DNA of 64,000 nucleotides from Hirsutella rhossiliensis (lineage: Eukaryota; Ascomycota; Sordariomycetes; Hypocreales; Ophiocordycipitaceae). The DNA lies in contig NW_025408668.1 of assembly GCF_020360975.1 (NCBI RefSeq), forward strand, positions 4,588,001-4,652,000, given 5' to 3'. Below are positions 1 through 63,117 of the stretch, one piece after another. Each line of letters begins with the position of its first letter. Within the stretch, counting starts at the first letter, position 1. The translations under genes and the position numbers were made by a program. Below the pieces are notes generated by a model, which did no database searches, was not told the DNA's origin, and worked only from the letters and a program-made list of their open reading frames with translations.

Positions 1-1783
1 GCCCAACGGGTACTGTTTGTACGTGTTTGACGCGTGGGAGTGACTTGAGTCTGGCTTGAGCTGGTGTCGGTGCATTGTGTGGTCAAGTGGGTGGGTGACT
101 GAGTGAGCAGTAGAGCAGAGTAGAGTGTTGTGTGTGTGTGTCGTTGAACTCACTCAGTCCGTGTTTCCGTCTGTTGTGTTTTGATCTCGTCCCTTTGCTC
201 GTTGCACTCGCAGGTCCTCCGTCCCGTGACTGTGTAGTTGTTCTTGTGAACGTGTTGACTCGGTCGAAGAGTTGTGAGTGTGGCTCTTCACAGTCGAACC
301 TTCGGCTCGCCTGCACACCCTTCGGGCGTGGGTTCCGTAGTCATGAATGATTCCGGGGTGATCAGAGGAGTGGATTACTTGAAGGGTTTCACCTTGTAAA
401 CGTGTGTGGGTCCACCATCTTGTATCTACACCTTGTAAACGTATCGCTCTACTCTATCTATGTGTTCCTTCCCGTCACTCATCCTGTCTTGCTCCGGCCT
501 TAAGCCTGCCGTCTTTGTTTCTTGTGAACGATGTACTCAATTGATGAAGTCTAGTGTACGTGTCGGATGAAGCCATCACGATTGCCGTATCGGGCAAGTG
601 GGGTGTCTACGGTGCGATGTGTGACCAGGCCAGTGCACTCCGCGTGCATCCTCTGTCTTTATCCTCCGTCTGTCTCTCGACCATACGAGTCCTCAGCTCC
701 GCGCAATGCAATCTCCGGGCACGTCAACAAGGTCAACCTCCTGCCCTTCCGGGTGACTACTCCATCCCCCGCGGAGTATGATAGATACCATGCCTCTCGG
801 CAAGGGTTCCACCGGCTCGTTGCACTCACCAAAAGTGTATACAGCCACTTCCCATCCTGTTCGTGTTGGCCGGGGTACGGGACTCGACGGAGCGCCGGAG
901 CGCATAGTGCATTTCCCTTCTTTTCAAAGAGGGGAAACAAGCGGGAGCGCAGCCCGCAGGGCGTAGTGGGAGCGCGTGAACAAGATACCGACTTGAGCTT
1001 CACGAGCGGGAACAGAACGGGATCGGAGCCCGTCCAGGGCGGAGAGGGAGTGCTGTGCACCAACCAGTGCTCACATTGTCCTGCTTTGTTCTCTTTTAAC
1101 GAAAAAGAGGAAGTAGATGAAGAGAACAGTCTTCCGTTCTTTCGAGTCGAGGGGCGGTAGCGCCTCCATCTCCTTGTCGGGTCGTGGACACCAGTCTAGT
1201 ATTCTTCTCCCGTGAAGAAGGGAACGGGACACAGAACGAGCCTGCCCCATCAGTCCTCACGTCCTTTCCGTCCTTGACCTGTTTCCGTTTGTCAGGCCTC
1301 TCGTCCTTTTCTCTTTCCTCCGTCAGTGCTTGTCGTCCACTGTCCGTGTGTCCTTTGAGCGTCACTTCCCGTGTCTGTCTGTTCCCGAGTCCCCCCCGGT
1401 CCACAGTCTGTCAACTGTTCTTACCATTTGCTCTTTGCGAGCCGCAGGCGAGGTCAGCGGAGCGCTTGCGCGGAGTGTGAACGCAGTTCAGAAGAAGGAA
1501 GAGAGGAAGAGAACCATCTGGGTTCAAGAAAGTGGGCGAACCCTGGGTTCTTATACCTTCCAGTGTCTGTATCCGTCCGGGCTCCCAACCCGTCCTGTAG
1601 TGGGGTCATGCAACTGCGAAGCTGACCAAGGACGTAGTACCCCTCCGCCGGGGTGTACCTTCCTATGACTCAGTGTCTCCCCTCCGGTACAAAACTGTTA
1701 TAAACTACATCCAAGCTAAAGCAAGGTGTCTAGAGCTGGGCCATGGAGCAGAGGCCCCCTATAAACTTAAGGATATAGGGGGC
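1..1783 (-). repeat. Unit 1 (left-truncated, non-coding type)
   Basis: Minus-strand unit cut by the window edge. The origin stem-loop is at 1753-1783 and has a shortened variant loop that lacks the TATTAC seen elsewhere. The minus-strand TATA box is at 1550-1555, followed by a GAACC/GGTTC hairpin. The conserved 3' element is at 566-581 and CTTGTAAACG iterons lie between 242 and 441. I see no convincing ORF; the body instead carries structured repeats (separate entry). Confidence 0.85.
905..1500 (-). repeat. Structured non-coding repeats of unit 1
   Basis: Three copies of a hairpin-bearing motif lie at about 931-985, 1014-1062 and 1430-1490. Each is built around GCCC-loop-GGGC or GCC-GCA-GGC stems flanked by GGGAGC/GGGAAC and GTGxAC words. 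Related copies occur in units 2, 6, 10, 21 and 24, always in units without a recognisable gene. Short ORFs cross the region (for example 659-1063, minus), but the similarity among copies is not confined to one reading frame. Confidence 0.5.
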
Positions 1784-3684
1784 GCGGGGGTATGCGTGAC
1801 CTCCCGTCACACACAATCTCACCCTCCGGGCTCGGTCACAGTGTCCTCGTTCCTCTCGTCCAGTTCCTCGTTCCACTCGTCAGATCTCGCTCCGCTCATA
1901 CAAAACTCCCTCCGGTCGTGGCCCAGGCTGTGATTGGTTGTTGTTGTCGTGTGGTGAACAGTACGTGTTGGGACTGAGTGACTGGGTTGTGTTGTGTCTG
2001 TCGTGTGTTTGTCACTCAGTCTCTGGTAACTAACTGTTCAGTGGGTGAGTTGTTGTATTGTGATGGTGCGTCGCGTGCCCTTACGGACACTGGCTCCTCC
2101 CGTCGCGTGAAGACTTTCTTGTGAACGTGTTTACTCGGTCGAAGAGTCGTAAGTGCGGCTCTCCACAGTCAGTCCTTCGGCCTGCCTGCACCCCCCTTTG
2201 GGGGGATTGTTTTCGAAGTCATGGATGGGCCCTCCGGGGGTGATCAGAGGAGTGGTAGGCCGGGAAGGGGTTTCCGCTTGTAAACGTGTTTGGGTACACT
2301 ATCTTTGCTAGTCCCCTTGTAAACGCGTTGGATGAAATGAAGGCATCGTGCCACGGCGATGCATCCAGTGCGCGTGCATGACGAGTGGTAGCCAGGGATG
2401 CATTACGATTCAGTCTACGTGTGTGTATGTAGGCGGCAGCGGGTGCCTTTATACCCTGGATGTGACCCATTTGCGTCCGGGTCTCACGCCCGGTGAGTAG
2501 TGGATATGTGCATGGAAGCTGATGGAAGGTGCCTGTCATTGGCAGTGTTCCCTCGCGGTCACAATGTTCTAGATGTTTCCCTCACAGTCACTTTGTTCTA
2601 CATTGTCTCTTCCAGGCACGTTCGTATTACCATTGAGCTCCGTCCCGTCACATTGTTCTGGATTGTTCCCTCCAGTCACTTGTCAAGATGAGGCCATCGT
2701 CACCACTGGTGTTGCGTGTGCGGGGCGGTCCCCTTGGTGTTCTACAATCACTTTCGTGATACCTCGTGTGTGTTCATGTCCAACACTCCGTTCCAGTAAG
2801 GACCACAGGCCATGATGGCGCTGTCAGTGAAACACCCTCGGGGTTGTTGAACGCATGTTCAAGATATGTTACCGGGAGCAAACGGTAAACGAAGCCCGTG
2901 CAGGGCGCAGTGGGAGTGCCGTGGACACCAGTGCAGATGATTCACCTGACGGGAACAAGTGGAGCGGCCCGCCAGGGGCTGTTGCGGGAACGAGTGCACT
3001 CGGGAGTCGACTCCAGTCATCCACTTTGACAACCGATTCCGTTGCACGGGAGCAAGTGGAGCGAAGCCCCGCCAGGGGCTGTTGCGGGAACGCGTGGACT
3101 AGTCAGTCGGTACCAGTCGCTTATTGCGAGCCGCAGGCGAGGCCAGCGGAGCGCTTGCGCGGAGTGTGAACGTAGTTCAAAAGAAAGGAACAATCCTGTT
3201 CCAGTTCGGTTCTCTCGAGTCAAGAGACGACAGAATCAATCTGTGCCGTGTGTCTCTAGTGGTGCCGCCGGCACCATGTGTGATCCCTCGGGGAAATGTC
3301 CATGAGCTACTCACTTTTCGTCTCGAGTCGAGGGGCGGTAGCGCCTCCATGCCCTTCCCGGGATTTTGAAAGAGGAAGAGAGGAAGAGAACCAGCTGGGT
3401 TCCGTGAGGTGGGCGACCCCTCGGTCTTATATGCCCTCTGGTGTGTGTGAGTCCCCACTAGCGTCCGGGTGCTGCCTGCCCCGTCACTGTCCGGGTGCGT
3501 GTATGGAAACCGGTGGTAACCTACACGATGACGTGGCACTCTTCCTCCGTCAAGTAGCCTCTTATGACGCAGTCTCTTCCGTCCCGTGCGAAACTGTTAT
3601 GAACTACACTCTGATGCTCGAGTGTCTAGAGCTGGGCCATGGAGCAGAGGCCCCCTATAAACCAAACTTAAGGATATAGGGGGC
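1784..3684 (-). repeat. Unit 2 (non-coding type)
   Basis: Complete minus-strand unit. The origin stem-loop is at 3649-3684 with a GGATATAG variant arm. TATA is at 3427-3432 on the minus strand and is followed by a GAACC-CAGCT-GGTTC hairpin. The 3' element is at 2688-2703, with a related copy near 2336-2351. Iterons are at about 2110, 2277 and 2311. The middle holds repeated GC-hairpin motifs rather than a gene. Confidence 0.88.
2876..3180 (-). repeat. Structured non-coding repeats of unit 2
   Basis: Four tandem-like copies of the hairpin motif lie at about 2876-2935, 2953-2995, 3046-3100 and 3117-3180. The two central copies share the block GCCAGGGGCTGTTGCGGGAA. The last copy matches unit 1 at 1430-1490 almost base for base. 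No single ORF spans them. Confidence 0.55.
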
Positions 3685-62708: not shown

Positions 62709-63117
62709 CAAGAGTAGCAGTGACTCCCTCACTCCTACAAGGTCCTCGCTGCCTGCTCGTACCAGTGTCCTCCATCCTGTCGTCCGTTCTCGCTCCGCTC
62801 AAGCACCTCCCTCCGGTCGGGGTGGCCCAACGGTGAGAGTGTGTTGTAGTGTACTCGTGTGTGGAGGTGACTTGGGAGTGTTGTGTTGTGTTCGGTCCGT
62901 CGCGTGCCCGTCGGACACGTGCTCCTCTCGGGCTGTGTTGAGCTGTCTTGTAAACGATGTACTCGATTGAAGATTCTTGAGCGTGGCTCTCCACAGCCAG
63001 TCCTACGGCCTGTCTGCACCCCCCTTCGGGGGGGTTGATTCCATAGTGATGAAGGAGTCCTCCGGAGGTGATCATTCGAAGTGAATTGCTTGAAGTATGA
63101 CTCTCTTGTAAACGGGT
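62709..63117 (-). repeat. Partial unit 30: common region only, array end
   Basis: Inverted pre-origin GGAGGG block (nearly identical to 44862-44979), a CA/GT-rich spacer, H3, an iteron (62948), H2 and H1 (CCCCCC-TTCGG... near 63018-63035), CCTCCGGAGG, and a last CTTGTAAACG iteron at about 63104-63113. Similarity to other units stops right after this iteron, with no gene behind it. Confidence 0.8.

Follow-up and report, generated by a model that had tools for sequence, protein, structure and literature searches.

Analysis of a 64,000-nucleotide stretch of the Hirsutella rhossiliensis genome (contig C2, positions 4,588,001-4,652,000; here called the window) revealed an array of 1.9-kb units that adjoin one another at copies of the same origin-like hairpin, some of which encode a replication-associated protein (Rep) of the kind found in circular Rep-encoding single-stranded (CRESS) DNA viruses. 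H. rhossiliensis is a nematode-parasitic ascomycete, and its assembly comprises 81.8 Mb in 40 contigs, with C2 measuring 8,442,910 bases. The array occupies about 357 kb of C2, from 4.382 Mb (a degenerate origin copy) or 4.388 Mb (an exact copy) to 4.739 Mb. It therefore extends far beyond the window on both sides, and the limits set by the initial annotation (positions 1 to 63,117 of the window) were too narrow. The letters analysed amounted to 264 kb (C2:4,380,001-4,580,000 and the window), with C2 4.580-4.588 Mb, the part of C2 above 4.652 Mb and contig C12 lying outside them. The array is real and very unusual, and no paper on it was found in the open-licence literature; the single paper retrieved there for Rad52 together with CRESS-DNA concerns a host transcriptome.

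A search with a profile of the origin region (nhmmer) gave 129 matches in the 264 kb, 100 in C2:4,380,001-4,580,000 and 29 in the window. These represent 127 places, two of which matched in both orientations. The 29 stem-loops first counted in the window were all recovered by the profile, and a short-word search found 28 of them. Along the window, three origins up to 5.66 kb lie on the minus strand, 21 between 5.72 and 52.8 kb on the plus strand, and five between 55.0 and 62.8 kb again on the minus strand. The exact 24-nucleotide loop and right arm is present in 116 of the 129 profile matches and occurs 171 times in the whole genome, compared with 0 occurrences of the reversed control. The profile matches were used for this figure; the invariance of the right half among the 118 sites found by word search is built in by the search word. 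Folding of four origins as single-stranded DNA gave z values of -1.9 to -3.2.

Neighbouring origins of the same orientation are evenly spaced: 93 of the 111 intervals measured 1,850 to 2,000 bp (mean, 1,923; standard deviation, 19). Two long gaps in the window (4,065 and 8,133 bp) are, by their length, single units with transposons inside, and length arithmetic gives about 1.94 kb for each of the two units once the insertions are subtracted. A negative correlation between the lengths of the inner part and the tail was partly built in by a moving marker, and the small standard deviation of the total length was used instead. After nine intervals were dropped, 102 units (1.6 to 2.4 kb) were compared. 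They fall into 59 nucleotide classes, defined by the similarity of the middle part of the unit, and 37 classes are singletons (Chao1 estimate, about 116). At 94% identity, 71 kinds were distinguished, 50 of them seen once (Chao1, about 149); both estimates presuppose random sampling and are based on a portion of a single array. The initial annotation had proposed 20 or more segment types, a number that is clearly surpassed, and had regarded Rep as the only gene repeated as such, which does not hold because 21 of the 71 kinds have at least two copies. The order of the units is near random. Repeated neighbour pairs numbered 2 versus a shuffle mean of 0.85 (P of about 0.2), which gives no support to block duplication as the way the array arose; with neighbours of the same class in 5 of 83 pairs, a degree of local doubling is possible.

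To describe the anatomy of the units, one representative of each class (n = 59) was compared with one mononucleotide shuffle of itself. Read from the origin, the order is a TATA box, the gene, GTTYACAAG, a CCGNAGG block, iterons, in some units a small hairpin, and the next origin hairpin. A TATA box lies at 180 to 330 nucleotides (mostly 219 to 253) in 44 of the 59 representatives versus 2 shuffled sequences. GTTYACAAG occurs in the 3' third of all 59 (156 occurrences, one to several per unit) and in no shuffled sequence, and CCGNAGG occurs there in all 59 (224 sites; shuffled, 14 of 59 with 17 sites). GGAG[CGT]GAG iterons are found in 52 versus 1. The small hairpin near the end, for example GTGAC-GGGAG-GTCAC, is present in a number of units. 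Similarity between classes is mostly limited to the first 10 to 12% and the last 25% of the unit, and the shared 3' motifs, together with the common 24-mer, bear out the origin and common region proposed at the outset. The promoter and iterons attributed to every unit were likewise found in most classes. The same proposal had one gene per unit, which holds for part of them: the longest open reading frame (ORF) of at least about 150 amino acids that starts with ATG points away from the origin in 30 of the 59 classes and in the opposite direction in 5, and 24 have no such ORF on either strand. Nine classes without long sense ORFs were chosen for shared similarity and aligned; a conserved block of about 55 nucleotides was seen in eight of them (classes 2, 6, 20, 27, 42, 45, 48, and 50; for example, window positions 9581-11509), among which one has a 196-amino-acid sense ORF and some have long antisense ORFs. 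These units are possibly non-coding or satellite-like segments. An Rfam search gave no match at the gathering score in the window and one chance-level match in an ORF-poor unit.

Comparison of near-identical units located the borders of the modules. Among 42 such pairs, 17 are alike from origin to origin (some pairs share a unit). The first and last stretches of these 17 pairs have mean identities of 98% and 99%, and the stretches adjoining them have 52% and 49% (14 to 64% in 33 of the 34 comparisons and 97% in one), against a background of 50% and 52% in random pairs of different classes. The two halves of the hairpin behave differently. The left-arm variant agreed at the end of the unit itself in 15 of 16 pairs (random, 0.57) and at its start in 11 of 17 (random, 0.54), whereas for the right flank agreement was seen in 16 of 17 pairs at the start (random, 0.54) and in 10 of 16 at the end (random, 0.53). 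Because the left-arm variant follows the ending unit and the right flank follows the starting unit, exchange is placed within or at the invariant CTTAAGTTTGGTTTATAGGGGGCC that separates them. Cleavage and joining by Rep would predict this site, and crossing-over in the same short stretch is a possible alternative.

The N-terminal part of the array Rep matched the Gemini_AL1 domain in Pfam (24.1 bits versus a cut-off of 24), and its profile matched a solved Rep at 3.5e-5. The sequence contains FVTYTR, HYHVMLKF, and AYIAKGG, which we take to be motifs I to III of the HUH endonuclease, and the protein is thus of the CRESS type (Geminiviridae/Genomoviridae-like). One Rep class is present in six units, and two further lineages occur; the three are 53 to 59% identical to each other. 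Over 89% of its length, the Rep of the window is 100% identical to a protein filed under H. rhossiliensis. Searches with the window protein gave 28 relatives and those with the profile 109. Those with names come from Hirsutella minnesotensis, Aphanocladium, Metarhizium, Fusarium euwallaceae, Colletotrichum, Cosmosporella, Truncatella, Tuber, Aspergillus, Pyricularia, and lichen fungi; one relative is filed under a bacterial metagenome-assembled genome (Candidatus Binatia) and is probably mis-binned. The longest contig carrying the relative measures 1.2 to 1.95 kb in 40 of the 109 cases and between 1.95 and 3.4 kb in one, and short-read fragmentation could contribute to these unit-sized contigs. 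A tree of 44 Reps, in which 15 of 41 forks are open, separates one H. rhossiliensis lineage from the main one and groups it with H. minnesotensis and metagenomic Reps in a supported clade.

A scan of 123 of the 125 selected unit ORFs against Pfam and NCBIfam named just Rep, Rad52, one Zn_ribbon_3CxxC protein, and a few weak matches. Rad52 (TIGR00607; best, 5.1e-38) was found in 2 of the 123. Copies in the array are 70 to 100% identical to the query; those on C9 and C4 are 57 to 58% identical, and a copy at C2:4.743 Mb is 51% identical and has 16 stops. The Rad52 gene of the host itself may be represented by a 37% match on C7. Among 116 Rad52 relatives, many are bacterial or unnamed, and three fungal ones lie on contigs of 1,796 (Purpureocillium), 1,783 (F. 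globosum), and 1,603 bases (F. agapanthi). Three further protein families, designated A, B, and coiled-coil, each occur in several divergent versions, other contigs included; family A is represented by 10 units in 5 classes. A phmmer grouping of the families chained unrelated classes (38 links on the control strand versus 70) and no count is based on it. No tool supported a derivation of families A and B from eroded HUH domains of Rep, and this idea was dropped.

Rep, Rad52, and families A and B show purifying selection. The ratio of nonsynonymous (dN) to synonymous (dS) substitution is 0.13 to 0.38 in the seven unsaturated pairs among 11 between-class pairs; the other four are saturated, and large dS values are rough. 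The dN/dS values are 0.32/2.5 for Rad52 of the window versus C9, 0.34-0.40/1.4-1.7 for Rep, 0.41/2.5 for family A, 0.31/1.5 for its divergent branch A2, and 0.33/0.86 for family B. An ordinary satellite lacking Rep and capsid genes, which had been named as an observation that would overturn the initial annotation, does not describe an array that contains Rep genes, 59 classes, and dN well below dS in the unsaturated pairs; on the side of the capsid there is a candidate gene.

Copies of one class are nearly identical. In 43 within-class pairs with at least 96% identity, 132 substitutions and 258 gaps were counted in 50,704 aligned bases (the pairs share sequences, and these counts are not independent). 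Single-base gaps lay in runs of three or more in 134 of 170 cases, and such runs make up 16% of the bases. The copies thus appear to carry residual homopolymer errors of long reads, and many broken frames may be unreal. This long-read error pattern, with copies that differ mainly by small gaps, is also what would be seen if extrachromosomal circles or concatemers had been stitched into the chromosome by the assembly. We consider such an artefact very improbable, since a hAT transposon with an 8-bp target duplication, a Mutator-like element (MULE) nested in it, and a TA-flanked element lie inside units, and since a 12.5-Mb H. rhossiliensis contig, maybe of the same strain, carries Rep and Rad52 that are 100% identical over the aligned part. 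The same insertions place the array in the chromosome, as was originally proposed, and indicate that it is not brand-new but old enough to have received all three elements. The single ORF checked in the 2.1-kb TA-flanked element had no Pfam match. Indices of repeat-induced point mutation (RIP) are near the thresholds in the array, and 32 of the 102 units, as well as the C9 units, pass both thresholds (one of them 0.89, from PMC4255773). Heavy recent RIP is disfavoured because substitutions between copies are nearly absent.

Related units were also found elsewhere in the genome. On C12, at 2.384-2.398 Mb, eight exact copies of the same origin adjoin a 99% identical Rep. C9 contains 5 kb with a coiled-coil unit and a Rad52 unit (intact ORF), with repeats 1.91 to 1.97 kb apart. 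Its origin is different (GGGACCCTTAT...TTTGGTTATAAGGGTCCC); a genome-wide search for the core of this origin, with two mismatches allowed, listed three matches, every one of them on C9. The neighbouring 150 bases are rich in AT and have extreme RIP indices. The C9 lineage is thus similar to the array in unit length, gene content, and layout, while its origin has diverged. Matches to coiled-coil, Rad52, and family B within 30 kb at C4:190-220 kb (positions only) suggest another diverged array.

All copies seen are thus chromosomal, in the large array, in small groups on C9 and C12, and as related genes on other contigs. This would agree with a purely chromosomal family of rolling-circle transposons, in which Rep moves any 1.9-kb unit that bears the origin, no virus stage exists, and the other genes are passengers or captured; a geminivirus-like Rep has multiplied as a transposon family in another ascomycete genome, that of Tuber melanosporum, according to the part of PMC3198968 available. 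We regard this explanation as unlikely. An encapsidated or episomal form would better account for the uniform length despite different genes, for the capsid-like basic protein, and for the contigs of unit size found in other fungi. As described in that part of PMC3198968, the Tuber element has 37-bp terminal inverted repeats, transposase ORFs, and interspersed copies of one element, whereas the array units end in the origin and the transposases in the window belong to the inserted hAT and MULE elements.

Segments of uniform length that share one origin and a common region are the hallmark of multipartite single-stranded DNA viruses, and this is the organization found here; such viruses also replicate and package their segments separately. 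Nanoviridae also have a shared stem-loop and common regions, with a different class of Rep. In Genomoviridae, the Rep and capsid ORFs are opposed, and a TAATATTAT-like nonanucleotide lies in the origin loop; the capsid protein is a jelly roll, and the particles contain circular single-stranded DNA. In the array, Rep and the capsid candidate run in the same sense from the origin; since neither this direction nor the nonanucleotide fits and the capsid is a candidate, membership of the Genomoviridae is not claimed. A close likeness is to Botrytis cinerea ssDNA virus 1 (BcssDV1), which is tetrasegmented and which, in the accessible text of PMC10731770, has segments of about 1.7 kb with one ORF each, two common regions, a geminivirus/genomovirus-type Rep, a capsid on its own segment, and a stem-loop origin with a non-canonical motif (TACTCTT^CA or TACTCTT^AG, compared with ...ACTT|AAG in the array). 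BcssDV1 differs in having 4 segments versus at least 59 classes and a Rep ORF that opposes the capsid ORF, and that text mentions neither Rad52 nor a chromosomal array. Fusarium graminearum gemytripvirus 1 (FgGMTV1) is likewise a circular single-stranded DNA virus with separate segments, in a hypocrealean host, but the description at hand gives it three segments. Nanoviridae resemble the array in having one gene per circular segment and a very uniform segment length (eight segments of 920 to 1,022 nucleotides in the part of PMC5094692 available) and differ in having 6 to 8 segments of about 1 kb and plant hosts (PMC5680193, in part). The novelty lies in how many kinds of segment there are, in a segment with Rad52, and in a chromosomal array bounded by origins.

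Judged from the sequence, the array is probably made up of complete segments, each of 1.9 kb, that come from at least one multipartite CRESS-DNA virus of hypocrealean fungi and were joined at their origins by Rep; the virus or viruses would be relatives of the genomoviruses and geminiviruses. Each unit would be one segment linearised at its replication origin, and a typical segment would have its own TATA promoter, at most one gene, the 3' GTTYACAAG/CCGNAGG block, iterons, and hairpins. Rep would cleave the origin loop at or just to the right of CTT|AAGTTTGG, and single-stranded or rolling-circle products of any segment bearing the origin would then be joined into chromosomal origins. Such joining into existing origins is proposed as the reason why unrelated segments lie head to tail with hybrid hairpins between them. 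Some inverted junctions would arise at the palindromic origin, and recombination would swap common regions between segments, possibly aided by the segment-borne Rad52. The uniform unit length suggests selection by packaging.

Several observations weigh against this virus reading. Circles and virions would be expected, and the array is known from a genome assembly alone. No relatives were found in IMG/VR with Rep, its profile, Rad52, or the capsid candidate as queries. The canonical nonanucleotides TAATATTAC, TAGTATTAC, and TAATATTAT are absent from the window, and the loop differs. No significant helicase domain was found in the C-terminal part of Rep with Pfam (nothing better than E 0.1); a solved helicase gave a weak match (0.0082 over 30 residues), and full-length relatives of Rep exist. 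The capsid candidate has no database match and was recognized by the strongly basic N-terminus of one 314-amino-acid ORF (L038:8424-9365). It has two copies, with no further genomic place among the matches listed; they are identical over most of the shared part, and about 33 middle residues differ as if one copy were out of frame, so that the 314-amino-acid reading may not be the true protein. Many classes lack a long ORF, related copies outside the array or at its edge carry many stops (old copies decay), and three Rep lineages share one origin and array. Finally, 25 of the 42 near-identical pairs fail the origin-to-origin comparison at one or both ends, which indicates that other parts of the common region recombine as well; some of the junctions could have arisen in this way.

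The segments need not have come from one virus. The array could instead be an archive, compatible with the virus reading, in which one site gathered segments from several related viruses, none of them with more than a modest number. The three Rep lineages, one of them in the clade with H. minnesotensis and metagenomic Reps, and the divergent versions of families A, B, and coiled-coil point in this direction. In contrast, the nearly invariant loop and right arm and the 3' motifs common to all class representatives speak against several viruses, the near absence of substitutions within classes points to a short insertion period, and a single capsid-candidate lineage was found, though divergent ones could be missed. 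We consider an archive a substantial possibility that falls somewhat short of being probable. More doubtful is the reading in which all segments, many dozens and perhaps over 100, belong to one virus or virus-derived element and are replicated in trans through one origin, with Rad52 driving recombination and the fungus keeping a releasable chromosomal bank. In a bolder form, the nematode-parasitic fungus might put this bank to use, by analogy with the use of polydnavirus segments by parasitic wasps. Bracovirus proviral loci consist of many kinds of segments in tandem in the chromosome, and their gene families are expanded; they yield large double-stranded circles, belong to wasps, and have no CRESS Rep. 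A domesticated system of this type, in which the fungus keeps the array and amplifies and uses its segments, would share with them the tandem segments and the gene families in several versions, and would agree with the purifying selection between classes. It is barely plausible, as relatives of Rep and Rad52 are present in many ascomycetes of other life styles.

With many dozens of kinds among well over a hundred blocks, the segments far exceed the number known for single-stranded DNA viruses. At most 8 segments are tabulated for multipartite ones in the available part of a review (PMC5680193), where models indicate that more than a few are hard to maintain. With a chromosomal bank this limit could be bypassed, as segments need not all be co-transmitted. 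The array makes it possible to test CRESS integration at an origin, the role of a Rad52 annealing protein on a rolling-circle replicon, and whether related ascomycete Rep genes mark similar elements. The features of the window are collected in the table.

Table. Origins, genes, and inserted elements in the window (positions counted from its first nucleotide)
Feature	Position	Strand	Evidence or remark
Degenerate origin region	1729..1836	-	nhmmer, 74 bits
Origin hairpin	3648..3683	-	short-word search and nhmmer
Origin hairpin, head-to-head with 5729..5764 (orientation switch)	5565..5600	-	short-word search and nhmmer
Origin hairpin	5729..5764	+	
Rad52 gene	6205..6948	+	PF04098, 1.7e-37; diverged intact copy on C9
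Origin hairpin	7650..7685	+	
Origin hairpin	9570..9605	+	
Origin hairpin, capsid-candidate unit	11498..11533	+	
Capsid candidate, one long open frame of the window copy	12086..12826	+	upstream matches from 11881 in other frames, one with 7 stops
AT-rich 2.1-kb element in capsid-candidate unit	13263..15385	.	46-nt inverted repeats (89%), TA at both ends
Origin hairpin	15563..15598	+	
Origin hairpin	17499..17534	+	
Possible coiled-coil family member	18313..18765	+	C-terminal signature seen by eye
Origin hairpin	19466..19501	+	
Origin hairpin	21352..21387	+	
Origin hairpin, unit with hAT insertion	23294..23329	+	
Family B protein	23711..24484	+	
hAT transposon inside unit	24571..30749	-	perfect 8-bp target duplication GACATTAC
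MULE nested in hAT	24665..28190	+	107-nt arms
Origin hairpin	31427..31462	+	
Family B protein, two frames as assembled	32137..32615	+	
Origin hairpin, left-arm variant	33363..33398	+	
Family A divergent branch (A2)	33877..34575	+	
Origin hairpin	35303..35338	+	
Family A protein	35949..36590	+	
Origin hairpin	37231..37266	+	also folded
Family A protein	37857..38546	+	
Origin hairpin	39175..39210	+	
Coiled-coil protein family	39798..40231	+	genome search
Origin hairpin	41107..41142	+	
Unknown protein (class 18), longer frame present in another copy	41232..41945	+	
Origin hairpin, Rep unit	43033..43068	+	also folded
N-terminal HUH endonuclease part of Rep, frame open in the assembly	43387..44241	+	Pfam Gemini_AL1, 3.7e-5; relatives
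Rep C-terminal part, second open frame of same gene	44013..44531	+	Walker A-like GRPRSGKT
Origin hairpin	44980..45015	+	
Unknown protein (class 55)	45488..46177	+	
Origin hairpin	46899..46934	+	
Origin hairpin	48846..48881	+	
Protein tied to family B	49251..49928	+	BLAST clustering; not among genome-search matches
Origin hairpin, Rep unit	50812..50847	+	also folded
Rep, second copy	51099..52306	+	two overlapping open frames
Origin hairpin, last ahead of orientation switch	52720..52755	+	
Origin hairpin	55006..55041	-	
Coiled-coil protein family	55884..56381	-	ORF clustering and genome search
Origin hairpin	56919..56954	-	
Family A protein	57733..58437	-	
Origin hairpin	58868..58903	-	
Origin hairpin	60769..60804	-	
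Rep, third copy	61507..62367	-	matches in three frames
Origin hairpin	62673..62708	-	

Some further observations concern single genes and scattered relatives. Relatives of family A with open frames and 46 to 47% identity lie outside the array at C1:5964540, C13:1632080, and C10:2222370, and pairs of matches to a single family were seen on C5 near 3.58 Mb and on C19 near 0.85 Mb. Inside the interval of the second orientation switch, the minus strand of the window (53669-54559) contains a 296-amino-acid frame with a coiled coil and a basic tail. The Zn_ribbon_3CxxC (PF13695) protein is encoded by a unit at L040:3937-4572 and was possibly captured from a fungus.

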